From Actinospica robiniae DSM 44927 (GTDB lineage Bacteria; Actinomycetota; Actinomycetes; Streptomycetales; Catenulisporaceae), in NCBI RefSeq assembly GCF_000504285.1, contig NZ_KI632511.1, positions 5,252,154 through 5,316,153 on the forward strand: a stretch of DNA of 64,000 nt. The letters run 5' to 3'. Both the position numbers and the translations under genes were made by a program. The notes under the pieces were generated by a model, which worked only from the letters and a program-made list of their open reading frames with translations, had not been told where the DNA came from and made no database searches. Positions 42,997-61,807 of this stretch are shown piece after piece. Numbering within the stretch: position 1 is the stretch's first letter; the number at the start of each line of letters is the position of its first letter.

Positions 42997-44334
42997 TCAG
43001 TACTGCGGGGGCTGCAGCACCGCCGCCAGCTGCTCGCCCTGCTTGCCCGGCATCATCGTGGCCACCATCGAGCCGTCGGTGAAGTGCAGCTCCGCCCGCG
43101 GCGTACGCCCGTGCTTGAGAGCCTCCTTGCCGCCCTCCAGCCGCACGCCGGCGATCGCCGTGCGCGGTACCGCGTAGACGAGGCGCATGGCGGCTCCGCC
43201 GAGCCGAGCACCACGGAAGACGAGGTAGCGCTGGTTGGTGACGGCCCCGTAGGCGCCGGGACCGTAGTCCTCGGAGGTGGCCCGGATGTAGCGGATGAGC
43301 CAGCCCGCCTGGCTCACCCAGCCGCCGACGAACACCGGCCCGGCCAGCGCCTTGAACATCGCGTCGGTGGCCTTCTCGGCGAGCTTCTCGGAGAGCGCCT
43401 CGCCCGGGGCCACCGCCCACTTGATGCCGCGGTTCATCTTGCCGCTGGCCCGGTTGATGTCGCCGAGCAGGTGGTGCTGGCCCTCGATGGCGATCTTCAG
43501 CTCGTGCGGCGTCTCCTCGATGGTGGAGTCGAGCTTGAGCATGAAGCCGTAGAAGACCTGCTCGCCCGGCTGCAGGAAGGGGCCGGCGCCGGTGAGGAAG
43601 GCGTCGCGCACCTTGGGCAGGTTCGGCGGCGGCGGGAACGAGACCGGCGCGCCGCCGGACTGGTCCATCGGCGGCAGAGTCGCCGAGGACTGGGAGGAGG
43701 AGGGCGAGAACTGCTGCGGGATCTGCGGGGCGGGCGGCTGCTGCGGCTGCGGATACTGCGGCTGCTGTTGCGGCGGGGCCGGCGGGGCCATCGGCGCCTG
43801 GACGGCGCCGGAGCTCTGGCCGAACGGCGGGACGTAAGCCTGCTGCGGCGGGGGCTGCTGCTGGAACTGCGGCTGAGGCTGCTGCTGCTGCTGGGGCGGA
43901 GCGTAGGGCTGCTGCGGCGGGGCGTACTGCTGCGGGTAAGGCTGCTGCGGGTACTGCGGGGGCGGCGGAGCGTACTGCTGCGGAGCCGGGGGCTGCGGCG
44001 GGTAGGGCTGCTGCGGATACTGCGGCTGCGCGTACTGCTGCTGCGCGTACTGCTGCTGCTGTGGGTACGGCTGCTGGGGCATCGGCGGCGGGTACGCGGG
44101 GGCCGGGTACTGCGGCTGCGGGTATTGCTGCGGCGGGTAAGGCTGCTGCGGATACTGCGGCTGCGCATACTGCTGCGGCGGCACGTACTGCTGCTGCGGC
44201 GGCGGGGCGTACTGAGCCGGCGCGCCGTAATGAGGGGCCTGATGGCCTGGCGCCGCGACTGGCTGCTGCGGCGCGTCGACCGGTTCCGGCTCAGGTGTCC
44301 ACTGCTGCGGGAACTGCTGAGCCGACTGGTCCAT
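42997..44334 (-). CDS. Pro/Gln/Tyr-rich low-complexity protein with C-terminal PH-like domain
   Basis: 445 residues in two parts. Residues 1-235 consist almost only of P, Q, Y and A in irregular repeats such as YPQQPYPPQ, QYAQPQYPQQ and QYAPPPPQY; such composition predicts disorder and resembles prion-like or self-associating regions. Residues about 238-445 look folded: KVRDAFLTGAGPFLQPGEQV, then YGAVTNQRYLVFRGARLGG, AIAGVRLEGG and AELHFTDGS, a beta pattern like bacterial PH domains or membrane-associated proteins. No signal peptide. Function unknown. GGTGGGG precedes ATG. An 11-bp inverted repeat lies in its promoter region. Confidence 0.8.
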   Translation of the reverse strand: MDQSAQQFPQQWTPEPEPVDAPQQPVAAPGHQAPHYGAPAQYAPPPQQQYVPPQQYAQPQYPQQPYPPQQYPQPQYPAPAYPPPMPQQPYPQQQQYAQQQYAQPQYPQQPYPPQPPAPQQYAPPPPQYPQQPYPQQYAPPQQPYAPPQQQQQPQPQFQQQPPPQQAYVPPFGQSSGAVQAPMAPPAPPQQQPQYPQPQQPPAPQIPQQFSPSSSQSSATLPPMDQSGGAPVSFPPPPNLPKVRDAFLTGAGPFLQPGEQVFYGFMLKLDSTIEETPHELKIAIEGQHHLLGDINRASGKMNRGIKWAVAPGEALSEKLAEKATDAMFKALAGPVFVGGWVSQAGWLIRYIRATSEDYGPGAYGAVTNQRYLVFRGARLGGAAMRLVYAVPRTAIAGVRLEGGKEALKHGRTPRAELHFTDGSMVATMMPGKQGEQLAAVLQPPQY

Positions 44335-49136: not shown

Positions 49137-52100
49137 CTAACCGGCCTCCACCGCGCTCGAGGGCGCGAGCTCGCCGATCAGGGCCTCGGTGCGCGGGTGC
49201 AGCTCGCGCACGCCGTGCACCCGCCAGGTGCGGTCGCGCAGGTCTGCGATCGCCCGGGCCAGCCGCTCCGCGTCTCCGGTGGCGAAGACGGCGCGCAGCA
49301 GGCCGCGCCAGAGCTCCTCGTCCTCGGGGCTCGCCCGCAGGCCTGCCTCGACGGCTGCGATGGCCCGCTCGGCGGCGCCGTTGGCGATGCGGGCGTCGGC
49401 GAGGCGCAGGGCGGTGTCGGCAATCGTCGCGGGGATCTGCGCCTCGACGATCTCGTAGGCCAGCCAGCCGTAGCGGCCCTTGGCCCGGTTGGCCAGGAAC
49501 CTTCCGCGCACCAGGTCGAGGGCGGCGTTGAGCAGGTGGTCGAGGTGCACCGGGGACTGCAGGTTCACGTCGTAGAGCGCGCGCGACTGCAGCGACTCGA
49601 ACAGGTCCCAGTCCGACCACACGTAGCGGCCGAGGCGGATCCGGCCGTCGGCCTCGATCAGCAGGTTCGGGGCCCCGTGCGGGTCCGCACCGAGCCAGTC
49701 GCCGAGCCGGTCCACGGTCGCGCGGGCGACGTCGGCGGTGGTGCCGCGGGGCCACAGGGCCGCGGCGAGCACGCTCGGGTGCACGCCGTCGCGGTGGTGC
49801 AGCAGGAACACCAGCGCCTCGTTGAGCAGCGGGAGCCGCTCGGTGTCGGCGAACTCGCCGAACCTGGTGCCCACGGTCTCGAGCTCGCCGAGCACCCGCA
49901 CGAACACCGACGGCTGCTCGTCCGGCAGCGGCCCGGTGTAGCCGACCCCGGTCACCCGCGCCATCCCGCCGCCCCCGCCGCTCAGCGGCACGCCCTCGAC
50001 GTCGCCGACGGCCCGGAACAGGCCCAGGATCGCCGCGTACTGGTCCGCCGGCAGCAGCTGCGCCTTGGCTTCGAGGCCGAGCCTGGACTCGCGCACGACG
50101 CCTGAGTCGTCGATGTCGAGCCGGCCCGCCGCGCCCGCGACGTCCGCGCCCACCACGAAGCCCATGCCGACGCGGGTGGTCTTCGGCGCGATCGAGATCA
50201 GACGGCTGAGAAGGGCCGGATGCGGCTCCTCGGCGATCAGCACGAAGTGCGGGGCGAAGGATCCGGCCTGGGTGGCGCGGGCCCGGGAGCCGAGGATCGA
50301 GTCGAGGCCGGCCGCCGAGAGCGCCTCGGCCCGCTGGGCGGCTTCGGCCTCGAGCACGGGCAGGATCTCGTCGAGCAGCTTCACGTGCTTGACCCGGGCC
50401 GGGGCCAGCGGCGAGAGGTCGCCCGGGAAGCCGACCAGGGTCACCGACATCCGGTCCGACCAGGCGTTGGTGGCGAGCTCGACGGCCATGGCCGAGATCA
50501 TCGCCGAGACCTTCTCGGCCGGGCCGCACACCGCGAGCACGCCGGGGACGGCCTCGAGGTCCACCAGGATCCGCTCGTCCCCGCGCTCTCCGCCGCTGCC
50601 GATGGACACCAGGCCGGGGTACGGGGCGAAGCGCACCCGCGCGGCGTCCCCGTCGACCTGGCCGATGGCCGGCCGCGGGAAGTTCCAGGACCGGCCGTCG
50701 GCCGCGGTGAACCAGGGCAGCGGCGCCTGCTCGGGGGCGGTCGGGTCGGCGGGCTCGTCCAGCATCAGCTCGATGCCCTGCGCCCGCAGCCGCAGCCCGG
50801 CGGCCGGGGGCAGCGGCCGGTCGCGGCGCACGAGCTCGGCGGACAGGCCGCGCAGGGCCAGGTCGAGGAACCAGACCTCGACCTCGCCGGCGCCGACCCG
50901 GATCGACTCCTCGGCCACCGCGGCGTCCCCGGTCGGGGTGGTCGGCCGACGGCCGCCGACCCGGTTCCACAGCTGGCGGCGGCGGTGCCGGCCGAGCGCC
51001 AGCAGCAGCCCGGCGGCCATCAGCGGCGCGCCGGCGATGCCGTAGAGCACCCGCTCCTCCACCGGCCCGAGCTGCCGCTCGTCCGCGGAGGCGGTGCCGC
51101 GGTGCGAGGTGCGCGGGGCGCCGGCGTCGATGGTGCCGCCGTCGTCCCCCTGCCCGGCCGATTGAGCGGCCTGAGAGACCACGGAGGCGATGTCCTCGGC
51201 GGTCTGACGGACCTTCACGCCCTGCGGGTTGGCCGGAGTGAGCTTCGTGTGCGCCGTGGCGGACGTGCCGGACGCGGATCCGGCTTGCCCCTGCTGTCCT
51301 TGCTGCCCCTGCTGCGCGCTCGCGGACGCCGCGGAGGTCCCGGCCGAGGAGTCGTCCGTCGTCGGCGCGGACGATCCGGAGGCCGTGGACGAGGATCCGG
51401 CGGTGGACGGGGGCATCTGCGTGATCAGGTCCCCGCCGGTCGCGTCGGCCGGCATCTCCAGGATCCAGCCGGGCCGGATCAGCGAGGCCTCGGTGAGCTT
51501 CTGCCCGTCCGGCTGCACCCGGTCCTTGTTGAGCTCGTAGATCTCCTTGTAGCGGCGGCCGTCGCCCAGATGCCGGTCGGCGATCTCCCAGAGCGAGTCG
51601 TGGTTGCGCCCCTGCGGCGGCTGCACCCGGTAGAGCTTGGTCCCGGAGGTGCTGTCGACCGAGACCGAGGTCAGCGTTCCGCTGTCCGGCCGGGCCAGCT
51701 GCTGCCCGGGACGCACCGACGGCAGGTTGCTCGCGCTCGCGATCACCCCGGCCGCCTTGAGCGCCGCCGAGGCGCCGGAGACGTTTGCGGACACGGGCTG
51801 TCCCGGATACAGCTGCGCGGAAGCGGCGGTCTGCGCCCTCGGCATCGCGACCGGCGTGTGCCCGAGGTGCGTGATGTCGGGCGCGAACGAAGCGGCGGTG
51901 GCGGTGAGCATCAGCAGCGCGGCGACGAGCTGGCGGGCCAGGAACTGGCTCGGCCCCGCCCCCGGCACCCGGGCCGGCAGGCCGACCCCGCGCCGCGCGT
52001 TGGCCAGCTCCACCAGTACGCACGCGGTGAACTGCGCCCAGGCCAGCCACACCACCACGGCCAGCGCCTTGAGCAGGATCTGGCTGCTCAGCGGCTGGCG

Positions 52101-52295
52101 GAAGGTGTCCTGGCTCGGCATGTGGTGCGGCAGCGGCCAGCCGATGAAGTGCACGAGCGCCAGGGGGATGCCGCCGAGCAGCACGGCGAGCAGGAGCAGC
52201 GCCCCGAGCGCCCGGAAGACGTCGCCTATCGTGCGCCGGTACTTCCTGGCCCGCCCGGTCTGCAGTTTCACCGGTTGTGGCGGTGTGTACGTCAT
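49137..52295 (-). CDS. Transmembrane LysM / winged-helix / BTAD regulator of the Tad locus
   Basis: 1052 residues. Three N-terminal membrane helices (about 28-52, 72-97, 119-140), an extracytoplasmic LysM domain (about 218-283, GRNHDSLWEIADRHLGDG, IYELNKDRVQPDG, LIRPGWILEMP), a Ser/Thr/Gln-rich linker, a fourth helix (about 415-435) and a long cytoplasmic part. This ends in a winged-helix-like stretch (HPSVLAAALWPRGTTADVARATVDRLGDWLG in pieces) and a BTAD repeat region (about 930-1040) as in SARP regulators. A peptidoglycan-sensing membrane-bound regulator is the inferred role. GGGGGA precedes ATG 52295. Last gene of the pilus operon. Confidence 0.85.
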   Translation of the reverse strand: MTYTPPQPVKLQTGRARKYRRTIGDVFRALGALLLLAVLLGGIPLALVHFIGWPLPHHMPSQDTFRQPLSSQILLKALAVVVWLAWAQFTACVLVELANARRGVGLPARVPGAGPSQFLARQLVAALLMLTATAASFAPDITHLGHTPVAMPRAQTAASAQLYPGQPVSANVSGASAALKAAGVIASASNLPSVRPGQQLARPDSGTLTSVSVDSTSGTKLYRVQPPQGRNHDSLWEIADRHLGDGRRYKEIYELNKDRVQPDGQKLTEASLIRPGWILEMPADATGGDLITQMPPSTAGSSSTASGSSAPTTDDSSAGTSAASASAQQGQQGQQGQAGSASGTSATAHTKLTPANPQGVKVRQTAEDIASVVSQAAQSAGQGDDGGTIDAGAPRTSHRGTASADERQLGPVEERVLYGIAGAPLMAAGLLLALGRHRRRQLWNRVGGRRPTTPTGDAAVAEESIRVGAGEVEVWFLDLALRGLSAELVRRDRPLPPAAGLRLRAQGIELMLDEPADPTAPEQAPLPWFTAADGRSWNFPRPAIGQVDGDAARVRFAPYPGLVSIGSGGERGDERILVDLEAVPGVLAVCGPAEKVSAMISAMAVELATNAWSDRMSVTLVGFPGDLSPLAPARVKHVKLLDEILPVLEAEAAQRAEALSAAGLDSILGSRARATQAGSFAPHFVLIAEEPHPALLSRLISIAPKTTRVGMGFVVGADVAGAAGRLDIDDSGVVRESRLGLEAKAQLLPADQYAAILGLFRAVGDVEGVPLSGGGGGMARVTGVGYTGPLPDEQPSVFVRVLGELETVGTRFGEFADTERLPLLNEALVFLLHHRDGVHPSVLAAALWPRGTTADVARATVDRLGDWLGADPHGAPNLLIEADGRIRLGRYVWSDWDLFESLQSRALYDVNLQSPVHLDHLLNAALDLVRGRFLANRAKGRYGWLAYEIVEAQIPATIADTALRLADARIANGAAERAIAAVEAGLRASPEDEELWRGLLRAVFATGDAERLARAIADLRDRTWRVHGVRELHPRTEALIGELAPSSAVEAG

Positions 52296-52318: not shown

Positions 52319-52813
52319 CTATCGAATACCCGCTTGGACGGTCGCCGTACCCGTCTCCGTGACCGTGATGGATCCGCCGCCGAAGATGGCGTCGAACACC
52401 AGCGGCTTGTAGGTGATGTGGACCGAGACCGTGACGGTGTTGCCCGGCCCGAGCTGGCAACCGTCAGCGCTCTTATTCGCGCCTTCGTTGCCGAAGCTCG
52501 TGTCGAGCGCGACCACCCCGCCGGCGTCCACGGTCTTACGCACTCTCGGGTCGAGCAGATAGGCCTTCGCCCGCGCGCACCCGTCGTTCGCGATCGCCGC
52601 GGTCCCGGACTGCTGCAGAGTGCCGAGGTCGAGGTTCTGCGCCTCGGCCCGCGCGGCCTGGTCGGCGAAGTCGGCGGCCCGCTCCCGCTGCGAGATGGCG
52701 AGGCCGACGTCCACGACCACGGAGAGCAGCACCCACACGACCAGCGCCCAGCCGATCATGATGAACGTCGCCGAGCCCTGCTCCCGATCCTCCCGCGCGC
52801 ATCGCGATCTCAT
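52319..52813 (-). CDS. TadG-like pilus-assembly protein
   Basis: 164 residues. After a basic leader (MRSRCAREDREQGSATF) one hydrophobic segment (IMIGWALVVWVLLSVVVDVGLAI) with Gln-Gly-Ser-Ala just before it fits the N-terminal processing region of TadE/TadG pseudopilins. The rest is extracytoplasmic with two Cys (GCARAKAYL, DGCQLGPG). ATG overlaps the upstream TadE-like gene by ATGA. Confidence 0.8.
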   Translation of the reverse strand: MRSRCAREDREQGSATFIMIGWALVVWVLLSVVVDVGLAISQRERAADFADQAARAEAQNLDLGTLQQSGTAAIANDGCARAKAYLLDPRVRKTVDAGGVVALDTSFGNEGANKSADGCQLGPGNTVTVSVHITYKPLVFDAIFGGGSITVTETGTATVQAGIR

Positions 52814-53280
52814 CGCTGCTCCCGGAAGTAGTCGAAAGGTGCGTAGGACGACTCCGTGAGCGAGAGATTCTGGCCGAACAGGGTGAAGTCACAGGTCACG
52901 GTGATCTGGACGACTTCCGTGAACGACTGCGCCGAGGTCGTCCCGGTGGCCTGCTTCGACGGAAGCTGGATCCGCATCGTCGCCGGCGTGATCGGCAGGT
53001 CGTTCTGGTCGTCGCGGGTGCAGGTGCCCTGCAGGTCCGCCCAGGCGGCTTTTCGGGCTGGGCCCGTCATATCGTTCGCAGGGTTCTGGACGGAGGCCAT
53101 GCGCGCGGCGTCGGCGGCGGCCTCCCGCACCTTGGAGACGTCCTCGGCGTAGAAACCGCATCCGACGCAGATCAGGAAGAAGACCATCATGACCGGCACC
53201 GCGATCACGACCTCGACGGTCGAGATGCCTGCCTCTCCGCGCTCACGCCGCGCTCTAGCCGTTCGGGCCGACACACGCAC
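52810..53280 (-). CDS. TadE-like pseudopilin
   Basis: 156 residues. Arg-rich leader then GEAGISTVEVVIAVPVMMVFFL, a class III-type prepilin signal with Glu at the fifth-position region, followed by helix (VREAAADAARMASVQN) typical of TadE. Start taken as GTG 53280, overlapping the previous gene by 26 bp; GTG 53274 is an alternative. Part of the flp-tadE-tadE-tadG run. Confidence 0.82.
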   Translation of the reverse strand: MRVSARTARARRERGEAGISTVEVVIAVPVMMVFFLICVGCGFYAEDVSKVREAAADAARMASVQNPANDMTGPARKAAWADLQGTCTRDDQNDLPITPATMRIQLPSKQATGTTSAQSFTEVVQITVTCDFTLFGQNLSLTESSYAPFDYFREQR

Positions 53281-53722
53281 CCGCCTGGGTGTAGTAGCAC
53301 TCGACCGGGCCCTGACTGGCGGCGTCGAGATGGAACTGCCAGTCCGGCACCACGGAGACGATCGAGAACGAGACCTCCATGCCGACCTCCGGATACGCGC
53401 CGCGGGTGACCGGGATCGGCGTCGCCTGCAGCGAACCGTCCGAGACCAGTCCGCCGATGAGCTGGTTCACCCACGTCTTCGCGTCCTTCTCGGCGGGTAC
53501 CTGCCAGGTTTTGGGATTGGCCGCCGCCTGCTCCCGCGCCGTACGAGCCCCTTCCTGGGCAGCCGTCTGCGCCACATGGCGGGCGAACATGGCCAGCCCG
53601 AACTGAACCGAGCCGAACATGAACAGGAACAGGAGCGGGGTCCACAGCACGAACTCGATGGCCGTGGCCCCCGACTCCTTGTCCTGCCTGTTCCGGCGAG
53701 CGGAACGGGGCGTTGCCTTCAT
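53255..53722 (-). CDS. TadE-like pseudopilin
   Basis: 155 residues from ATG 53722 (MKATPRSARRNRQDKES). GATAIEFVLWTPLLFLFMFGSVQFGLAMFARH matches the TadE family signal helix; the Glu after GATAI is the conserved acidic residue. C-terminus carries two Cys (ECYYTQAGACVG). It begins 13 bp after the pilin gene. Confidence 0.87.
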   Translation of the reverse strand: MKATPRSARRNRQDKESGATAIEFVLWTPLLFLFMFGSVQFGLAMFARHVAQTAAQEGARTAREQAAANPKTWQVPAEKDAKTWVNQLIGGLVSDGSLQATPIPVTRGAYPEVGMEVSFSIVSVVPDWQFHLDAASQGPVECYYTQAGACVGPNG

Positions 53723-53735
53723 GGCGTACTCGACG

Positions 53736-54008
53736 TCAATTACCGGGGCCGACACCGGCGCAGGCGGCACCCGGGGCGGCGCCCTTGCCCGTGCCGTTGA
53801 TCTGGTCGCAGACCTGCTGGCCCTTGGCCTCCAGGGTGGTCAGCAACCAGAAGCCGACCGCGACCACGATGGCGACCACGATGGCCGAGATGATCACCCA
53901 CTCGACCGCGGATGCACCGCGTTCGGACTCCTCGGATCTCGCCCTCGCGTAGCGCGCCGTGAATGAGACGCGTAGGTACTGCAGCGCCGGGCCGAACACC
54001 GTGTTCAT
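53736..54008 (-). CDS. flp: Flp-type major pilin
   Basis: 90 residues. A long basic leader of about 30 residues ends in ESERG, followed by ASAVEWVIISAIVVAIVVAVGFWLL, the hydrophobic assembly helix of class IVb Flp prepilins with conserved Glu at position 5 after the predicted cleavage. The mature protein is about 60 residues with two Cys in the tail (QQVCDQ, GAACAGV), unusual for Flp. Processed presumably by the prepilin peptidase at 61169. Confidence 0.92.
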   Translation of the reverse strand: MNTVFGPALQYLRVSFTARYARARSEESERGASAVEWVIISAIVVAIVVAVGFWLLTTLEAKGQQVCDQINGTGKGAAPGAACAGVGPGN

Positions 54009-54033: not shown

Positions 54034-54936
54034 CTACCTGAGGCCCGAGATCTGCATGATCGCCGGGAAGATCAAATAGATGAGAAAGCCGGTGCACAGC
54101 AGCAGCTGCGCCACCAGCATCGACTGCGACTGCTGGCCCGCCTTGCCCTCGATCTCCGCCAGTTCCCGGCGCCGCATGGTCTCGGCCCGGGAGGCGAGGG
54201 ATTGGCGGATCTTGGCGCCGTCGTCCGCGGTGAGCGCGATCGCGTGTCCGAGGTCGACGAGTTCTTCGACACCGAGCGTGTCGCCGAGCGCGCTCAGCGC
54301 CGCCCATTGGGTCTGGCCGGAGAGCCGCGCGGCGGTCAGCGCGTCGCGGATGCGGCGCACCGCCCAGCTGTTGCTGATCTCCGCCGCCGACATGATGGCC
54401 TCGGGCAGGCCGCGGCCGCCGGAGAGGTTCATCGACACCAGATCGAGGAACGCGGTGACCACCCGGCGGAAGTCCGCACGCCGTTCCTTGGCATCGCGGC
54501 GCACCTCCAGGTCAGGCAGGACGAAGAACAATGCCGCACAGCAGAGCGCGAGCCACACCGGGACCAGGGCACTGAGGTGGAAGCCGACGAGCCAGAGCGC
54601 GACGAAGAACAGCGGCGGCAGGAAGAACCCGACCGCGGCGAGCCCGAGCTTGGTCGTCAGGAAGGCTTCCCAGCCGCGGTCCAGAATCGCCAGGTCGGCC
54701 CGCAGGGACCGCATCTGCCAGCCCTGACTCGCGTAGAACTCGGCCGCCTTCCGGCCGATCAGCTCCCTGACGGACTCGGCCCGCTCCCGCCGCTCGGCGC
54801 TGTGCGGGCCGAGTTCGCGCAGCGCGTCGATCTGGGCCACGGTCACCGCGGCGCTGGGCCGCGACGGTATCAGGGCCCGGATCAGCAGGAACACTCCGAG
54901 GCCGACCAGCGCGCCGAGGGCGATCTCCACGATCAC
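54034..54936 (-). CDS. tadC: TadC inner-membrane platform protein
   Basis: 300 residues with a T2SSF domain (about 165-285). Membrane helices at about 1-24, 108-127, 129-150 and 275-297. Conserved features: FRRVVTAFLDLVSMNLSGGRGLPEAI and GDTLGVEELVDLGHAIALT. Pairs with TadB to form the platform on which TadA works. Confidence 0.93.
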   Translation of the reverse strand: MIVEIALGALVGLGVFLLIRALIPSRPSAAVTVAQIDALRELGPHSAERRERAESVRELIGRKAAEFYASQGWQMRSLRADLAILDRGWEAFLTTKLGLAAVGFFLPPLFFVALWLVGFHLSALVPVWLALCCAALFFVLPDLEVRRDAKERRADFRRVVTAFLDLVSMNLSGGRGLPEAIMSAAEISNSWAVRRIRDALTAARLSGQTQWAALSALGDTLGVEELVDLGHAIALTADDGAKIRQSLASRAETMRRRELAEIEGKAGQQSQSMLVAQLLLCTGFLIYLIFPAIMQISGLR

Positions 54937-54940
54937 GCGT

Positions 54941-55816
54941 TCACCTGACCCGTAGCAGGAAGCGTTCCGGTGTCTTCATCTCGGCGAGCTTGCGCAGCCA
55001 GAAGAAGCCCGCGGCGAAGAAGGACACCACGATCAGCAGCACGACCTGGCCGACGGCGGAGTCGTACGCCTGGACGTACCGATGGTCGAAGAGCGCGAGC
55101 CCGAGCACGACCGCGGCCACGCTGATGACGATGATCTGGACCGAGCGCCGCGTGCCGGCTCGCTGGGCGATGATGCGCTGGCGCATGTCCACCTCTTCGC
55201 GGGCCGACTTGGCGAGCGCGCCGAGCACCTCGCGAAGCCCGGGGCCGCGCAGTTTCGCGTTGAGGATCAGCGCGGCGATGATGATGTCCGCGCTCGGGTC
55301 GTCGATGTCGTCCGCGAGGTGCTGCAGGGCGTCGGCCAGGGGCATCCGCCCGCGCACCCGGTCCATGAGGGCGTCGAGGTGCGGGATGAGCAACGGCCCG
55401 GCGGTCCGGGCCGCGGACGGGATCGCCTGCTCGAGGCCGACGGCTCCGGCGATGGTGTCGCGCAGCGACTCCGTCCACATGGCGAGGGCTTCCACCCGCT
55501 GCATGCCGAGCCGTTCGCTGCCCAGCCCGCCGAACAGCTGCTTCCAGAAGAAGACCAGCACCGCCACCGCGATGCCGGCGACCGGCCACCGGGTCAGCAC
55601 ACCCGCGACGATCCCGACCAGCAGGGCGATGATGAGCCGCTGTCCGGCGCTGCGCATCCGGTCGCCAATCTTGAAGCCGCCCTCGGCGGGGCGCTCCTTC
55701 GGCCTGAAGCCGACCAGGGCCGCGATCAGCAGGGCGATGCCGCCGCCGACGACCAGGCCGGCCAGGATCGCCTCAAGCGTGGAGATCTGCAGGAGTTCTC
55801 GAGGGTTCATCGCCAC
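54941..55816 (-). CDS. tadB: TadB inner-membrane platform protein
   Basis: 291 residues, T2SSF domain (about 120-250) with LWTESLRDTIAGAVGLEQAI written here by eye as the MWTESLRDTIAGAVGLEQAI stretch, helices near the N-terminus and at both sides of the domain. Start could be GTG 55816 or ATG 55810; both lie inside a 14-bp duplication that also covers the tadA stop. Stop is 4 bp before tadC. Confidence 0.93.
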   Translation of the reverse strand: MAMNPRELLQISTLEAILAGLVVGGGIALLIAALVGFRPKERPAEGGFKIGDRMRSAGQRLIIALLVGIVAGVLTRWPVAGIAVAVLVFFWKQLFGGLGSERLGMQRVEALAMWTESLRDTIAGAVGLEQAIPSAARTAGPLLIPHLDALMDRVRGRMPLADALQHLADDIDDPSADIIIAALILNAKLRGPGLREVLGALAKSAREEVDMRQRIIAQRAGTRRSVQIIVISVAAVVLGLALFDHRYVQAYDSAVGQVVLLIVVSFFAAGFFWLRKLAEMKTPERFLLRVR

Positions 55817-55834
55817 ATCCGGTTCATCGCCACA
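55804..55834. repeat. 14-bp direct repeat at the tadA/tadB junction
   Basis: GGTTCATCGCCACA at 55804-55817 and 55821-55834. One copy holds the tadB start, the other the end of tadA. Confidence 0.85.
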
Positions 55835-57122
55835 GTCCGCTCGGCTGATACCCGTGGGCCAGCAGTTCGTCGATACAGGTGACCGGGGAGTGCGGCATGG
55901 CCCGTCCGTCGGGGCCTTCCATGAACACCTCCGAGGAGAGCACCCGCCCGTCCACGCCGCTGACCTCGCGCACCGAGGTGACCATGCGGCGCACGGTGCC
56001 GCCGCGGTGGTAGTCGTTGCGGCGGGCGATGAAGACCACGAAGTTGATCGCGCCGGCGATCAGCATGTGGCTGGCCTCGACCGGCAGCCGCTCCTGGGCC
56101 TGCAGCGCGTAGGTGGAGATGCGGTTGAACACCTCCTGCGAGGAGTTCGCGTGGATCGTGGAGAGCGAGCCGTCGTTGCCCTGCGACATCGCGTTGAGCA
56201 TCGTGACGATCTCGTCGCCGAGCACCTCGCCGACGATGACCCTGCTGGGGTTCATCCGCAGCGACCGGCGCACCAGCTCCGCCATGGTGATCGCGCCGAG
56301 GCCCTCGGAGTTGGGCAGCCGTTCCTCAAGCGCCACCGTGTTCGGGTGCAGATCGGGGAACTGGTCGAGGCCGAGTTCGAGCGCACGCTCCACCGTGACG
56401 AGGCGCTCGTGCGCGGGGATCTCGTTGGCCAGGGCCCGCAGCAGCGTCGTCTTGCCGGCGTTGGTCGAGCCCGCGATCATGATGTTCTTGCGCGCCTGCA
56501 CGGCCGCGGCCAGGAACGAGCCGAGCTCGGTGAGCACGGTGCCGTTGCCGACGAGGTCGGACAGGAAGACCTTGCCCATGCGCGCGCGGCGGATGGAGAG
56601 CGCCGGGCGGCGGGTGACGTCCATGACCGCGCTGAGCCGGGAGCCGTCGGGCAGGCGCAGGTCCAGCTGCGGGTTGGCTGCGTCGAACGGCCGTGAGCTC
56701 AGACCCGAGTAGGCGCCGAGGATCTGGATGAGCTCGACCATCTCCTCGTCCGACTCGGCGATCGGCTCCACCATCGCCTCGCGGCCGTCCGCGTAAGAGA
56801 CGAAGACCCGGTCGCAGCCGTTGACGTCGATGTTCTCGATGTCCGGGTCGTCCAGCAGCGGCTGGAGCCGGCCCACGCCGAACAGCGCGGCGTGGATGCC
56901 GGCGGCGAGGGCCTCCTCCTCCTCGGCGGTGGGCGGACGCCGGCCGGCGGTCATCTCGGTGTGCGCGTGCTCGGACAGCGTCTGGCCGATCACGGCCCGG
57001 GCGTACTGCCGCTCGTCCTGCGCGGTCATCACCGGCAGGCCGCTGATCTGGTCGAGCCGGCGCTGCTCGGCTATCCGGTCGCCGACTTCCTGACGCAGCC
57101 GTTTGACGAGGCCGTGGTCCAT
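55824..57122 (-). CDS. tadA: TadA/CpaF secretion ATPase
   Basis: 432 residues from ATG 57122. An N-terminal domain is followed by the hexameric ATPase core: Walker A IAGSTNAGKTTLLRAL, the Asp box, Walker B as VIVGEVLGDEI (Arg replaced: family usually GEVRG) and the His box LSTIHANSS. Powers pilus assembly at the TadB/TadC platform. It starts 1 bp after the tadZ-like stop. Confidence 0.95.
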   Translation of the reverse strand: MDHGLVKRLRQEVGDRIAEQRRLDQISGLPVMTAQDERQYARAVIGQTLSEHAHTEMTAGRRPPTAEEEEALAAGIHAALFGVGRLQPLLDDPDIENIDVNGCDRVFVSYADGREAMVEPIAESDEEMVELIQILGAYSGLSSRPFDAANPQLDLRLPDGSRLSAVMDVTRRPALSIRRARMGKVFLSDLVGNGTVLTELGSFLAAAVQARKNIMIAGSTNAGKTTLLRALANEIPAHERLVTVERALELGLDQFPDLHPNTVALEERLPNSEGLGAITMAELVRRSLRMNPSRVIVGEVLGDEIVTMLNAMSQGNDGSLSTIHANSSQEVFNRISTYALQAQERLPVEASHMLIAGAINFVVFIARRNDYHRGGTVRRMVTSVREVSGVDGRVLSSEVFMEGPDGRAMPHSPVTCIDELLAHGYQPSGLWR

Positions 57123-57123
57123 C

Positions 57124-58260
57124 TCAGCCCACCGTCCGATCGCTCGGATGCGGCACGCTCTTGAGGTTCGCGGCCGTGGTCGCGCCACCGCGCGGGTTGC
57201 TGAAGTACGGGTTGGTCGAGTTCGGGTTCGAACTCCCGTTGCCGTTCGCGCCGCCGCCGGGCGTCACCGAGGTCGGCGTGATCGGGATCGAGGTCATGGT
57301 CTCCGCGTTGACCGAGGCGGCGTACGCGGGCTGCGGCGGCGGCGTCGGCTGAGGCGGCGTCGGCTGCGGCGGCGTCGGCTGCGGCGGCTGGAAGCCGGGG
57401 TGCTGGGGGTACGCCGCGGGCCGGCCCTGGGGCTGCGGCGGCTGTGCGGACTGCGGCGCCTGCGGGCGCAGCAGTCCGTAGCGGTGGGAGACGGTCGCGG
57501 CCAGTTCCCGCGCGCTGCGGGTGACCAGTGCCTTGTCGACGCGGCCGCGGGCCCGGCCGTTCAGCGCCGCGGCGCCGGTCTCGTCGTAGGCGATGACGCC
57601 GACCACCTCGGCCCCGGCGGTCGTGGCCGAGAGCAGGTCGCCGACCTGCTTGACGGTCTCCTTGGCCCGTCCGGGCGGGACGATCAGCACGATGCCGATG
57701 GGCGGCCGGGCCAGCGAGACCGAGCTGTTCTGGCTGGCGTGCAGGCGGGCGGAGAGGCTGTTGGCCCGGTCCCGCACGTGCGCGATCTGCTCCGCCTCGG
57801 CGCGCGCGATCAGCAGCACCAGGCCCGCCTGGCCGAGCAGGTCGACGCTGGGCGAATCAGGGCCGATACGTCCGCAGTCGGCGATCACGTCGGCCCCGCC
57901 CGGCAGCTCGCCGAAGCGGTCGAGGGCGCGGCCGAGGGTCGGCCACAGCCCGGTCATGCCGCGCGCCTGGTCCGCGTTGCCAAGTCCGACCAGGATCTCC
58001 AGGCCGCCGCGCAGCCGCTGGGTGTGCTGGGCGAGGGTGCCCGGATCCAGGCCGCGGCGGGCCTCCACCGCGAGCGAGACGAGGCCGCGGTTGGGGTCGA
58101 GCGGGCCGCCGTGGTCGGCCGGCATGCGGTAGACCAGGTCGCCGCCGTGCGGATCGCATTCCGCGAACAGGGCGCGGCGGGGCCAGACGGCGGCCAGGGC
58201 CACGGCCGAGGTGGTGACCCCGGGGGAACCCTTGTCCGCCGCGAGAGCGATGAGCGTCAT
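57124..58260 (-). CDS. TadZ/CpaE-like MinD-superfamily protein with Pro-rich tail
   Basis: 378 residues. A MinD/ParA-like domain (1-270) starts LIALAADKGSPGVTTSAVALA. The deviant Walker A keeps the first Lys but has Val where the catalytic Lys would be (KGSPGVTT rather than KGGxGKT), so ATP hydrolysis is doubtful. The C-terminal third is disordered and contains three PQPTP repeats (57346-57390 in DNA, 15-bp period) and a Gly/Asn/Ser-rich end. TadZ proteins position the pilus machinery at a pole. Confidence 0.85.
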   Translation of the reverse strand: MTLIALAADKGSPGVTTSAVALAAVWPRRALFAECDPHGGDLVYRMPADHGGPLDPNRGLVSLAVEARRGLDPGTLAQHTQRLRGGLEILVGLGNADQARGMTGLWPTLGRALDRFGELPGGADVIADCGRIGPDSPSVDLLGQAGLVLLIARAEAEQIAHVRDRANSLSARLHASQNSSVSLARPPIGIVLIVPPGRAKETVKQVGDLLSATTAGAEVVGVIAYDETGAAALNGRARGRVDKALVTRSARELAATVSHRYGLLRPQAPQSAQPPQPQGRPAAYPQHPGFQPPQPTPPQPTPPQPTPPPQPAYAASVNAETMTSIPITPTSVTPGGGANGNGSSNPNSTNPYFSNPRGGATTAANLKSVPHPSDRTVG

Positions 58261-58271
58261 GAGGACACGGC

Positions 58272-59075
58272 CTAGTTCCCAGCGCTCGCCGTGCCGCCGG
58301 GCGCGGAACCGTTGCCGCCGGCGGAGGGGGCGGCGCTCGCGTGCGTGGAGGCCACGCCGTTCGCGCCGGTGGTGAACACCAGGTTGCCCTCCTGCGAGGC
58401 GGTCAGCAGGTTGGCCGCGTCCGCCTTGTCGACGGAGATCTCGAACACGCCGGCCGAGTTGGAGGAACCGTTGTCGCCGGGCAGCTCAACGATTCTCACC
58501 GAAGTCGCCAGCAGAAGCGTGACGTCCGCGCCACCGGTGGTGCCGGGCTGTGTCCCGACGTAGTACGCGGAGACCGTGTCGCCGACGCCGAGGCTGGGCG
58601 GGTACTGGGAGGCGGTCAGGGAGACCGCGAAGGTCATCAGGTTGCCGTCGGCGGCCGGCGAGCTGTTGAGCATCTGCCCGATCAGCAGCGTGCCGGGCAC
58701 CAGGTCGGTCTCCGCCGTGTACTGACTCAGCTGGCCGCGCTGCGACCAGGTCACGTAATTGATGGAGGAATCCTGCGCCACCATGGCTTCGCTGATATCG
58801 GCGTCAGTGATCTGCTGTCCCTGGGCGACGTGTCGCGTCACTTGGATCACTCCGACTCGGTTTCCCGCCTGCATCTGCAGGTAAACCGAAGCGAGCACGC
58901 CTGCTGCGATGAGAAGCAGGGCCAGGGCGGCCAGCGCGGGCTTGCGTTCGCGCGAGGTGGTGGGCGGACGTACCGGTCCGGGGGGCGGGGCAGGCGCGCT
59001 CGGCCGGGCGGCGGGGGAGCCGGCAGGCTTCCATCCCGTCATCCCGGCGACATTGTTCTCCGTGCTGCTGCTCAC
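58272..59075 (-). CDS. CpaB/RcpC-like SAF-domain protein
   Basis: 267 residues from GTG 59075, with GGGGG 9-14 nt upstream. A Pro-rich cytoplasmic N-terminus, one membrane helix (LAALALLLIAAGVLASVYLQM, about 47-67), then a SAF/CpaB domain (VTRHVAQGQQITDADISEA and LVPGTLLIGQML). In diderms RcpC works with the secretin; in this monoderm no secretin is present and the protein probably contacts the wall side. First gene of the pilus operon. Confidence 0.87.
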   Translation of the reverse strand: MSSSTENNVAGMTGWKPAGSPAARPSAPAPPPGPVRPPTTSRERKPALAALALLLIAAGVLASVYLQMQAGNRVGVIQVTRHVAQGQQITDADISEAMVAQDSSINYVTWSQRGQLSQYTAETDLVPGTLLIGQMLNSSPAADGNLMTFAVSLTASQYPPSLGVGDTVSAYYVGTQPGTTGGADVTLLLATSVRIVELPGDNGSSNSAGVFEISVDKADAANLLTASQEGNLVFTTGANGVASTHASAAPSAGGNGSAPGGTASAGN

Positions 59076-59109
59076 GATCCGTACCCCCGGAGTGGCCGAC
59101 TGGCTCCTG

Positions 59110-59137
59110 ATAGTAGCGGCGCAGTCGGAAAACTCAA
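59110..59137 (-). promoter_or_regulatory. Predicted promoter of the tad operon
   Basis: TTGAGT, 16 bp, TACTAT on the minus strand, about 35 bp upstream of the CpaB-like start. It is the best -35/-10 pair in the window and would drive all ten genes down to the LysM/BTAD gene, which are packed with gaps under 30 bp. Confidence 0.6.
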
Positions 59138-59344
59138 CAGGGTCCGCGGCCGAATATGTGGCAAACCGCAACCAGGCGTGCAAGATCATCGCAGTGTTCT
59201 GGCTAGAGGCGTCGAAGGACACGTTTTCGCTACACGTATACGCTCCGGCATTATCGGGCTACCGGTGCCGCGGTTGGCCCGGTACGATCCGGTGTCGACC
59301 CATCTGTCTTCGATGGGCGATCCGGGACCTACGCAGGGGGAACT

Positions 59345-60001
59345 GTGCGTTCGCGGACAACTGCCCTCGTCACCGCCATGATGCTATGCGCGGCGCTTTA
59401 CGGTTGCTCGAGTTCCGTACAGCAAAGCGGTGGAATCAGCGGTGCGGCCACGGGAGCCGCGTCCTTTGCGCCCGGCTCGGCGGCCACGGCCTCGCTCGCA
59501 CCGGTCTCGGGATTGTCGATGAGCTTCAAGATCCCCTCGGATCTGAGCCTTCAGTTCCAGACCACGGATCAGGGTTCGGTCACGGCCGATGAGATTCAGA
59601 CGATCCTGGTGTATCAGTATGAAGGCTTCATCGAGGCACTCAGCTCCGGCGAGGCGACCGAGGCGAACTTCCGCTATCTCACCGCCGGCGACGCGCTGAG
59701 CACCGAGAACTCCCAGCTGGCCTGGTGGAAGAAGCAGAACGAACGGCTCACCGGCGTCGACCGGCTCTACGCCTTCACGGTCTCGGCGAGCGGAAAGGGC
59801 CAGGCCGAATACTCGTATTGCGAGGATTCCACCCGGCTCGACTACGTGGACCTGGGCGACGGCCGGACGATCCAGAACACCGCGGGCACCACGGAAAACT
59901 ACACCCTGCGCCAAGGCATCCTGGTGCAGGGCAAGGGCGAACTGTGGGCGGTCGAACAGGTCTTGACCAAGGACGGAGCGTCCTCATGCATCGGAAAGTG
60001 A
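59345..60001 (+). CDS. Secreted lipoprotein next to the Tad operon
   Basis: 218 residues. Signal peptide with lipobox ALYGC (Cys about 21), a Ser/Ala-rich linker, then a globular domain about 65-215 starting SFKIPSDLSLQF, with AEYSYCEDST and SSCIGK, two Cys that may pair. Fold resembles small alpha+beta (NTF2-like) domains in other secreted actinobacterial lipoproteins, without certainty. GTG has GGGGGAA upstream. Its end overlaps the next gene by 16 bp. Confidence 0.75.
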   Translation: MRSRTTALVTAMMLCAALYGCSSSVQQSGGISGAATGAASFAPGSAATASLAPVSGLSMSFKIPSDLSLQFQTTDQGSVTADEIQTILVYQYEGFIEALSSGEATEANFRYLTAGDALSTENSQLAWWKKQNERLTGVDRLYAFTVSASGKGQAEYSYCEDSTRLDYVDLGDGRTIQNTAGTTENYTLRQGILVQGKGELWAVEQVLTKDGASSCIGK

Positions 60002-61149
60002 AGGGGCGGGCGGCTTTGTCCGCCGCGGTCCTGGTCTCCTCCAGCGTCCTGGCCACGGTCGGGTCGGTCACACCCGCCATGGCGGACAGCGTGGCCATCT
60101 GCCCGAGCAGCGGCGGCAGCAGCGGCGGAGGCGGCGGCGGAGGCGGCGACACCTACAAGATGTGGGAGGTGGTGAACCAGCAGATCACCTCGTGCTCCAA
60201 CGGAGGCAACGCCGCGCAGAGCGACGGCAGCAGCGGCTCTGCGAGCATCGTCCCGTGCTGGTGGGCGCCAGCCTACGACCCGGCGGGCCTGCAGGGCTAC
60301 GTCCAGGCCTTCGAGTCCACAAGCTCCACGGACAACTGGTACACGATGCTGGCCAAGGAGTACGACACAAACGGCACCGACGCCCCGCCCTCCGACTACA
60401 AGTCGGACTCGGGACCGCCGTGGGACAGCTACAACGTCGGTACGACACCCCTGGGCGAGTGGTACGGCATGTTCTACAACAGTGCCGCCTCCGGGGACCA
60501 GCTGGACACCTGCTCCCATGAGCTGGCTGCTCTGGGGGCCAAGCAGTTCTACTGGGCCGACAACGAAGACCAGCCGACCGGAACGCCGGCGGAAATACCC
60601 GTCTTCACCGATCTTGAACTCGCCCAGTACGTCGAGAGCGTAGTGCTGCTGCCCGCGGCGCAGGTGAAGTCGAGTCAGGGACGCAATGACGCCGCGGGCG
60701 ACCCGGCGAGGGCGACCGTCGGCCTGCCCATCTGGTACTGGCAGGATGAGGGCACTACCCACACGAAGGTGGACCAGGAAGTCTGCGTCTTCGGTACGCG
60801 GTACTGCGTGGACTTCACCGCCTACGCCGTCTCCTTCACGATCGATCGCGGCTCCGCCCCCGGCCGAGCCTGGAGCGGCGACTGCGTCCATCAGTCCTCG
60901 AACACACTGGGGCCGGAGTGGCACGGCCAGTCCGCGTCGGTGAATCCGACCTGCGGCGTGGAGTACTCGACGCTGGCCAGGGGCGTGACGCCGACGGTCT
61001 ATACGACCTGGCACGTCCACATCACCTGGGACGGGGGCGACTGGAGCCCGCCGAACGACCCGGTGATCGCCACGACCCTCGATCCCTTCGACGTGCAGGA
61101 CATCCAGGCCTACAACCGGACCTCGCCGAGCGCGACGCCGAGCTCCTAG
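59986..61149 (+). CDS. Secreted Trp- and Cys-rich protein, Tad-associated
   Basis: 387 residues with a signal peptide (about 1-33, ending TPAMA). Then Gly-rich SSGGGGGGGG, a Trp/Cys-rich body with VPCWWAPAYDP, LGEWYGMFYN, VGLPIWYWQDE, AGRAWSGDC-like turns and TTWHVHITWDGGDW. The LPIWYW segment is like that in Streptomyces secreted proteins found beside Tad loci. Eight Cys suggest disulfides. No transmembrane anchor. Probably made with the lipoprotein, whose end it overlaps. Confidence 0.7.
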   Translation: MHRKVKGRAALSAAVLVSSSVLATVGSVTPAMADSVAICPSSGGSSGGGGGGGGDTYKMWEVVNQQITSCSNGGNAAQSDGSSGSASIVPCWWAPAYDPAGLQGYVQAFESTSSTDNWYTMLAKEYDTNGTDAPPSDYKSDSGPPWDSYNVGTTPLGEWYGMFYNSAASGDQLDTCSHELAALGAKQFYWADNEDQPTGTPAEIPVFTDLELAQYVESVVLLPAAQVKSSQGRNDAAGDPARATVGLPIWYWQDEGTTHTKVDQEVCVFGTRYCVDFTAYAVSFTIDRGSAPGRAWSGDCVHQSSNTLGPEWHGQSASVNPTCGVEYSTLARGVTPTVYTTWHVHITWDGGDWSPPNDPVIATTLDPFDVQDIQAYNRTSPSATPSS

Positions 61150-61168: not shown

Positions 61169-61645
61169 TCAACCCCGGATCAGCTCCACGGCCTGGGCGG
61201 CCAACGCCGCCCAGGCCCCGAGTATCAGGTACGGCCCGAAGGCGACCATCGACTTGCGCCCGACCCGGCCCAGCGCCATCCCGCCGAGCGCGGCCACGCA
61301 GGCGGCGAGCATGCCCAGCAGCAGCCCCGCCACGGCCACTGGCAGCGCCGCCCAGCCGAGGAAGAGCCCGAGCACGCCGACCAGCTTCACGTCGCCGAAG
61401 CCCATCGGGCCGAAGAACCACAGCAGCCAGAACAGTCCGTAGAAGAGTGCTGCCGCGATGGCCGCGACGGCCAGGCGCCACCAGGCGCCGCCCGCCCAGG
61501 ACGCCGCGGTCAGCCCCAGCAGCCCCCAGCCGCAGAGCGGGAAGAGCACCTTGTCCGGCAGGCGCTTCGTGCGCGCGTCGATCCACGCGAGGATCCCGCT
61601 CGCAAACAGGAATCCCGCGTACACCACCCCGACTACCCACTCCAT
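61169..61645 (-). CDS. Prepilin peptidase (TadV/CpaA, family A24)
   Basis: 158-residue polytopic aspartic protease. The two catalytic Asp are in WIDARTKRLPD (about residue 24) and MGFGDVKLVG (GxGD). About six membrane helices. ATG 61645 begins right before the first helix (MEWVVGVVYAGFLF). It should cleave the Flp, TadE and TadG precursors. It is separated from the pilus operon by the two secreted-protein genes. Confidence 0.9.
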   Translation of the reverse strand: MEWVVGVVYAGFLFASGILAWIDARTKRLPDKVLFPLCGWGLLGLTAASWAGGAWWRLAVAAIAAALFYGLFWLLWFFGPMGFGDVKLVGVLGLFLGWAALPVAVAGLLLGMLAACVAALGGMALGRVGRKSMVAFGPYLILGAWAALAAQAVELIRG

Positions 61646-61807
61646 GCGCCCGACGATACCCCGACGGACAGCACCGGGGCCGGTGCGCAGCGTGCGCACC
61701 GGCCCGTGGAGGGAACTTCCGCGCGAACCGGCGCCCGAAGCACCGGATTCACGTCAGCCGACCGCGTCCGGACCCGTCACCCGGGCGCCGGCCGCGCGCC
61801 GGCCGGG

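Follow-up and report, generated by a model that had tools for sequence, protein, structure and literature searches.

What does a protein do that combines a putative peptidoglycan-binding LysM domain with a SARP-like regulatory module and that is encoded at the end of a Tad pilus operon? Such a gene is found in Actinospica robiniae DSM 44927, in the 64,000-nucleotide stretch of DNA analysed here (the window), whose source genome is one 9.9-Mb contig. The first-pass annotation had read its product as a membrane-bound one-component transcription factor with a wall-sensing input. The gene and its neighbours, the predicted membrane topology, the fold of the cytoplasmic part and the distribution of the family are considered in turn below.

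The ORF of the LysM-BTAD protein (49137-52295, minus strand) starts with ATG, encodes 1052 aa and begins 23 bp past the stop of a TadG-like gene. Nine tad genes precede it, collinear and in the order CpaB-CpaE-TadA-TadB-TadC-Flp-TadE-TadE-TadG, and it is the last gene of the operon, as had been claimed; beyond it lies a convergent degV gene. Going upstream on the same strand, the operon encodes a TadG/TadE-like pilin-like protein (52319-52813; Pfam Tad PF13400), two TadE-like proteins (52810-53280 and 53255-53722; Pfam), and a 90-aa Flp major pilin candidate (53736-54008), which contains GASAVEWVIISAIVVAIVV, was recognised from its sequence and is kept in the loci of relatives. These are followed by TadC (54034-54936) and TadB (54941-55816), both matched by T2SSF, and by the TadA/CpaF ATPase (55824-57122; T2SSE and TIGR03819), for which the listed ORF runs from 57188 and relatives begin MDH.LVKRL. 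The CpaE/TadZ-like protein (57124-58260) and the SAF-type CpaB/RcpC-like protein (58272-59222) were assigned by their position as in annotated Tad loci and by similarity to the same genes of relatives, and the true start of the latter is probably near 59040, compared to the ORF start at 59222. Further upstream, 61169-61699 (minus strand) encodes a prepilin peptidase-like protein; in most Streptomyces loci, the gene for its relative comes immediately after that of the LysM-BTAD protein.

Two other genes lie upstream of cpaB and diverge from it, namely a lipoprotein-like gene (59345-60001, plus strand) and a gene for a secreted protein of ~387 aa (59986-61149, plus strand). In 36 of the loci that were read, relatives of the secreted protein are encoded close to the LysM-BTAD gene, and in S. 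coelicoflavus (locus L065) the pair is present twice and stands between tadG and the LysM-BTAD gene; it is possible that both are Tad accessory or tip proteins. Elsewhere in the window, 42997-44334 (minus strand) encodes a 445-aa protein with a long N-terminal Pro/Gln/Tyr-rich repeat region (PQQYPPQQPYPQ...).

Membrane topology was predicted from hydropathy and the positive-inside rule. Instead of the single membrane helix supposed at first, about four transmembrane (TM) helices were obtained, all given here with their minus-strand coordinates: TM1 (aa 30-48; 52152-52208), whose flanking charges place the N-terminus in the cytoplasm, TM2 (aa 77-95; 52011-52067), TM3 (aa 123-141; 51873-51929), which is marginal in hydropathy (1.69), conserved in position and runs into the extracytoplasmic part, and TM4 (aa 416-434; 50994-51050), after which the chain continues with RHRRRQLWNR. 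The LysM region (aa 215-290; 51426-51653) and an Ala/Ser/Gly/Thr/Gln-rich linker (aa 291-415; 51051-51425) are thus predicted outside, and the C-terminal ~615 aa, including the winged helix (wHTH) and BTAD, inside. This sidedness agrees with the one proposed by the first-pass annotation.

The LysM domain itself scores 11.7-16.8 bits in this protein (Pfam: 11.7), under the Pfam cut-off of 20.9, and is also matched by NCBIfam NF008399 (E 4e-4). Given that 25-68 bits are reached by several relatives with this layout, among paralogs as well as plasmid-encoded proteins, and that the segment is the best conserved part of the protein, we consider the domain secure despite its sub-threshold match; hence the earlier assignment stands by way of the relatives and fails the cut-off in the protein itself. 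Indeed, mean column identity is 0.86 in the LysM segment, compared to 0.80 in the winged helix, 0.78 in the middle domain and 0.75 in BTAD. Likewise, aa 215-290 are 61-97% identical to this protein in relatives and the cytoplasmic part mostly 41-45%, the nearest relatives, from Actinospica species, having 83-89% identity across the cytoplasmic part.

An AF2 model of aa 436-1052, built from 35 sequences (pLDDT 79), splits into two parts. Residues 26-330 of the model (aa ~461-765; 50001-50915, minus strand) match the FtsK motor 6t8o (Z 16.7, 3.4 A across 218 residues) and also EccCb1-D2 (Z 14.5) and the EccC5 DUF domain (Z 13.4). When the middle domain was predicted and searched alone the same fold was obtained (Foldseek E 7e-8, VIA Z 16.1), while a sequence-only search found no relative of it in the PDB. 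According to these models, an FtsK/EccC-type domain between the membrane and the winged helix is a feature that the first-pass annotation overlooked. Such a fold, with Z up to 16.7, could belong to an active or nucleotide-binding FtsK/EccC-like translocase, driving a substrate across the membrane part. However, residue checks make this very improbable: the P-loop carries no Walker A GxxxxGK[ST] in 35/35 alignment members, reading for example VCGPAEKVSA, so that the Walker A lysine is missing, and the acidic residues at the Walker B-like positions are not constant, Streptomyces having Ala there. Since GK[ST] is missing from every sequence aligned, the motor is probably inactive.

The second part of the model (residues 355-612) matches AfsR (8hvr_I, Z 15.5; 8k60_I, Z 15.3) and EmbR (2fez, Z 14.4). 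It consists of a SARP-type winged helix (aa ~796-890; 49626-49910, minus strand), delimited by AF2, Foldseek and profile comparison, with the recognition-helix equivalent VARATVDRLGDWLG (aa 856-869; 49689-49730, minus strand) placed by alignment with SARPs, and of the BTAD domain (Pfam PF03704 match at aa 895-1009; 49269-49613, minus strand). BTAD, named from the start, reaches 27.2 bits against a cut-off of 22.1 and is matched in 34/35 relatives. As to the winged helix claimed beside it, the predicted structure bears out the fold and Pfam gives no Trans_reg_C match in the protein. Compared profile to profile with SARPs from this genome, the module matched with a probability of 98% and E 1.5e-12 across 241 columns, the SARP profile being made from eight sequences only. 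The predicted layout has LysM outside, four TM helices and, inside, a catalytically degenerate FtsK/EccC-type motor and then a SARP-type winged helix and a TPR-like BTAD.

In AfsR, the residues contacting DNA are S46, Q48, W74, P79, S80, Q81, R87, T88, S91, R92, R94 and K95, and among them Q48, W74, P79, T88, R94 and K95 are the contact residues conserved in SARPs (PMC10936776). The equivalents of Trp74 and Arg92 are invariant in 35/35 relatives of the LysM-BTAD protein. The other positions have largely changed: Thr88 is replaced by Ala in 35/35 and Arg87 by Asp or Glu in 31/35, the Lys95 equivalent is mostly Asp, Ala or Glu and that of Ser91 mostly acidic or Ala, the R94 equivalent is kept as Arg in 20/35 and is Gly in this protein, the Q48 equivalent is not Gln, and the HTH loop, which holds P79 in AfsR, is 3 residues shorter in 35/35. 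Furthermore, in a 14-residue window the net charge of the recognition helix is 0 in 20 sequences and +1 in 15, compared to a range of +2 to +4 for eight SARPs encoded in this genome. In the five divergent paralogs linked to Tad loci the helix has +1 to +4, in windows that are longer and were placed by eye. The protein thus has the SARP order of winged helix then BTAD and keeps W74, and it lacks the conserved set of DNA-contact residues.

These residues bear directly on the regulator proposed by the first-pass annotation. In such a regulator, LysM would report the state of the wall or the occupancy of the pilus, the tethered SARP module would bind tad promoters and BTAD would recruit RNA polymerase. 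Tethered regulators do exist, and those of such logic include ToxR and CadC. The AfsR/EmbR fold (Z 14-15), the SARP profile match (E 1.5e-12), the invariant Trp74 and Arg92 equivalents and the predicted cytoplasmic placement of the module all speak for regulation, whereas the loss of Thr88, Arg87 and Lys95, the shortened HTH loop and the near-neutral recognition helix speak against it, and so does the fact that the winged helix is not the most conserved domain. What stands of that proposal is the predicted winged-helix fold and its predicted place inside the cell, so that neither of two outcomes named beforehand as refuting it, a lack of that fold or a BTAD on the outer side, came about; most AfsR DNA contacts are gone and, as the following shows, the gene behaves in genomes as a fixed Tad component. 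A layout like that of ToxR or CadC has to be given up, as four TM helices and a pseudo-motor come before the winged helix, which is C-terminal.

Relatives were searched for in genome contigs with a five-sequence alignment as query, a single-protein query having returned nothing, and 484 genome relatives were obtained; with 214 plasmid records besides, the family is widespread. The best 80 of the 484 were kept as loci and read, with synteny in draft loci derived from a crude gene caller and tblastn. In most of the 80, the LysM-BTAD gene is preceded by tad genes, followed by a prepilin peptidase gene, or both. It is itself the final gene of the tad operon in Actinospica and Actinomadura; many Streptomyces have it together with the prepilin peptidase gene, with inserted genes between it and tadG. 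Fourteen loci have little or no tad in the flank, 13 of which are in searchable Streptomyces genomes, and TadA was found there at 76-79% identity in 13/13. Complete Tad loci on plasmids of Glutamicibacter, Kineococcus, Streptomyces, Xylanimonas and Rhodococcus have the gene in the corresponding position, where automatic annotation calls its product, for example, 'LysM peptidoglycan-binding domain-containing protein' or 'bacterial transcriptional activator domain-containing protein'.

Of 98 genomes sampled from the class, 19 have TadA at E<=1e-100, 25 have the LysM-BTAD family and 18 have both. The family is thus found in 18/19 genomes with close TadA vs 7/79 of the others (Fisher p 4e-13, a value inflated by genome relatedness), and 14 TadA/LysM-BTAD pairs on one contig lie on the same strand, 5.4-6.9 kb apart. 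One sampled genome (G013) has TadA and no family member, and the single-contig genome G090, where the best TadA and LysM-BTAD matches lie far apart, is a counter-example, in which a more divergent TadA may be present beside the LysM-BTAD gene. Querying the whole class with only the wHTH-BTAD part was not informative, as the candidate list (9 of ~50 scored) was taken up by the numerous SARPs. Together, the loci and the sampled genomes show that the LysM-BTAD protein is encoded with a Tad machine nearly everywhere it occurs.

The arrangement itself varies in some Streptomyces, where inserted genes part the LysM-BTAD gene from the tad operon, both being kept, as at 2.4-7.5 kb of locus L065 and, over up to ~20 kb by contig coordinates, in L035 and L038.

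The genome of A. robiniae has five paralogs of this layout, each within its own Tad locus. An ICE/T4SS context considered for these five was rejected, as the loci proved to be Tad loci. Six Tad-type loci in one genome, each with its own LysM-membrane-SARP-type protein, represent an unusual redundancy, perhaps a sign of different pili or of specificity. The sequence stops early in BTAD in three of the five paralogs.

Given the constant linkage to the machine, the strongest constraint on LysM, the inactivated motor and the loss of most DNA contacts, a scaffold fits better than a canonical regulator. We therefore favour, with a probability of about 0.5, a peptidoglycan-anchored assembly or docking part of the pilus machine, dedicated to one clade of actinomycete Tad (type IVc) machines. 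LysM would fasten the platform in the inner membrane to the peptidoglycan at the point where the pilus passes through the wall. In the cytoplasm, the block of pseudo-motor, winged helix and BTAD would oligomerise and form a platform on which TadA, CpaE/TadZ or TadB/C dock, by a principle that could be analogous to the use of LysM-TM-TPR by FimV/HubP for polar machines. The winged helix would largely have been re-purposed from promoter recognition to protein contact, though it may still make weak or non-specific contact with DNA. The truncated BTAD of three of the five paralogs is counted for the scaffold and against regulation, and a gene with a constant place in or beside a structural operon more typically encodes a machine part than a regulator.

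Several observations count against the scaffold. A whole wHTH-BTAD module in SARP order with invariant Trp74 and Arg92 equivalents would be surprising in a protein that had lost DNA binding altogether, the recognition helices of the paralogs are more basic, and in Streptomyces the LysM-BTAD and prepilin peptidase genes often form a separate unit several genes from tadG. The kept R92 and W74, the intact order and the basic helices of the paralogs make regulation the chief rival, although we consider it rather unlikely. Less probable still is a pilus-base scaffold with transcription feedback, whose SARP part would for example bind DNA only when free of TadA/CpaE and so couple assembly state to expression. 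Such a protein would account for the mixture of kept (Arg92, Trp74) and lost residues, the basic helices of the paralogs and the fixed linkage to the Tad machine, but it requires two functions where one suffices. Furthermore, no LysM-BTAD-type protein is named in the gene set reported for the working tad clusters of M. luteus (PMC4322843), and given the TadA-only genome G013 as well, the LysM-BTAD protein is not a universal Tad part.

How monoderm Tad machines hold together without secretin-linked parts is a question raised before (PMC6916266), and no peptidoglycan-processing enzyme has so far been tied to Tad pili (PMC12307814). For the anchoring of these machines, the conserved, membrane-spanning subunit that bears LysM, and whose gene is linked to that of TadA in many actinomycetes, offers a concrete candidate. 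Tentatively, and with less confidence than in the docking role, we suggest that monoderm actinomycete Tad pili own a peptidoglycan-anchoring or alignment subunit, made of LysM, an inactivated motor and a SARP module turned to protein binding, that does the anchoring job of diderm secretin-linked parts. Should the protein bind DNA after all, it would be an unusual SARP, tethered to the wall. In databases it is a trap, being automatically named 'putative transcriptional regulator' despite a recognition helix largely devoid of SARP-type DNA contacts.

In the open-access literature, subscription papers being outside the scope of the search, no functional work on a LysM+BTAD Tad protein was found, and the sole description is a table entry. 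This is PAGK_2369, an ORF of a Cutibacterium acnes plasmid tad locus for which LysM and BTAD were tabulated together in 2013 under the label 'TadB' (PMC3666418, Table 2). It shares both domains with the LysM-BTAD protein and is the last but one gene of its Tad locus, after three TadE genes; the entry tabulates domains only and describes no motor domain, topology or function. Two other leads were rejected: for extracellular contractile injection systems (eCIS), LysM and BTAD are given only as separate shell domains of the loci (PMC8213781), and the 'BTAD' matches behind a Myxococcus Kil-pilus parallel were journal article numbers.

Among known systems, FtsK has a membrane part of several helices, then its motor and then a winged helix. 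This order recalls the LysM-BTAD protein and is treated here as a curiosity. The fold of aa ~461-765 is common to the FtsK/EccC/EssC motors (PDB 6t8o, 2ius, 9jv8, 8rin), but unlike them the LysM-BTAD protein has no Walker A, its winged helix is SARP-type and it carries LysM outside. With AfsR/SARP regulators and EmbR (PMC10936776; PDB 8hvr, 8k60, 2fez) it shares the wHTH and BTAD fold and order in the C-terminal ~260 aa, whereas its module is C-terminal and membrane-tethered and has lost most DNA contacts and the charge of the recognition helix. ToxR and CadC likewise have a winged helix inside and a sensor outside in one polypeptide; in these, however, the wHTH is N-terminal with a single TM, in contrast to four TM helices, a C-terminal wHTH-BTAD and a pseudo-motor between. 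The FimV/HubP polar organisers, which act on polar machines including type IV pili (PMC12918733), have the same general layout of LysM outside, TM and a long cytoplasmic part ending TPR-like. They have a single TM, a signal peptide and an acidic cytoplasmic region, with neither motor fold nor winged helix, and no FimV family match to the LysM-BTAD protein was found in Pfam or NCBIfam, BTAD and four TM helices being present instead; the analogy is thus one of working principle only. Finally, there is no demonstrated sequence relation to RcpC of the alignment complex of diderm Tad pili, and a CpaB/RcpC-like protein is also encoded at this locus, but that complex (PMC12307814) would fill the same need, namely fixing the inner-membrane platform to the outer envelope layers.
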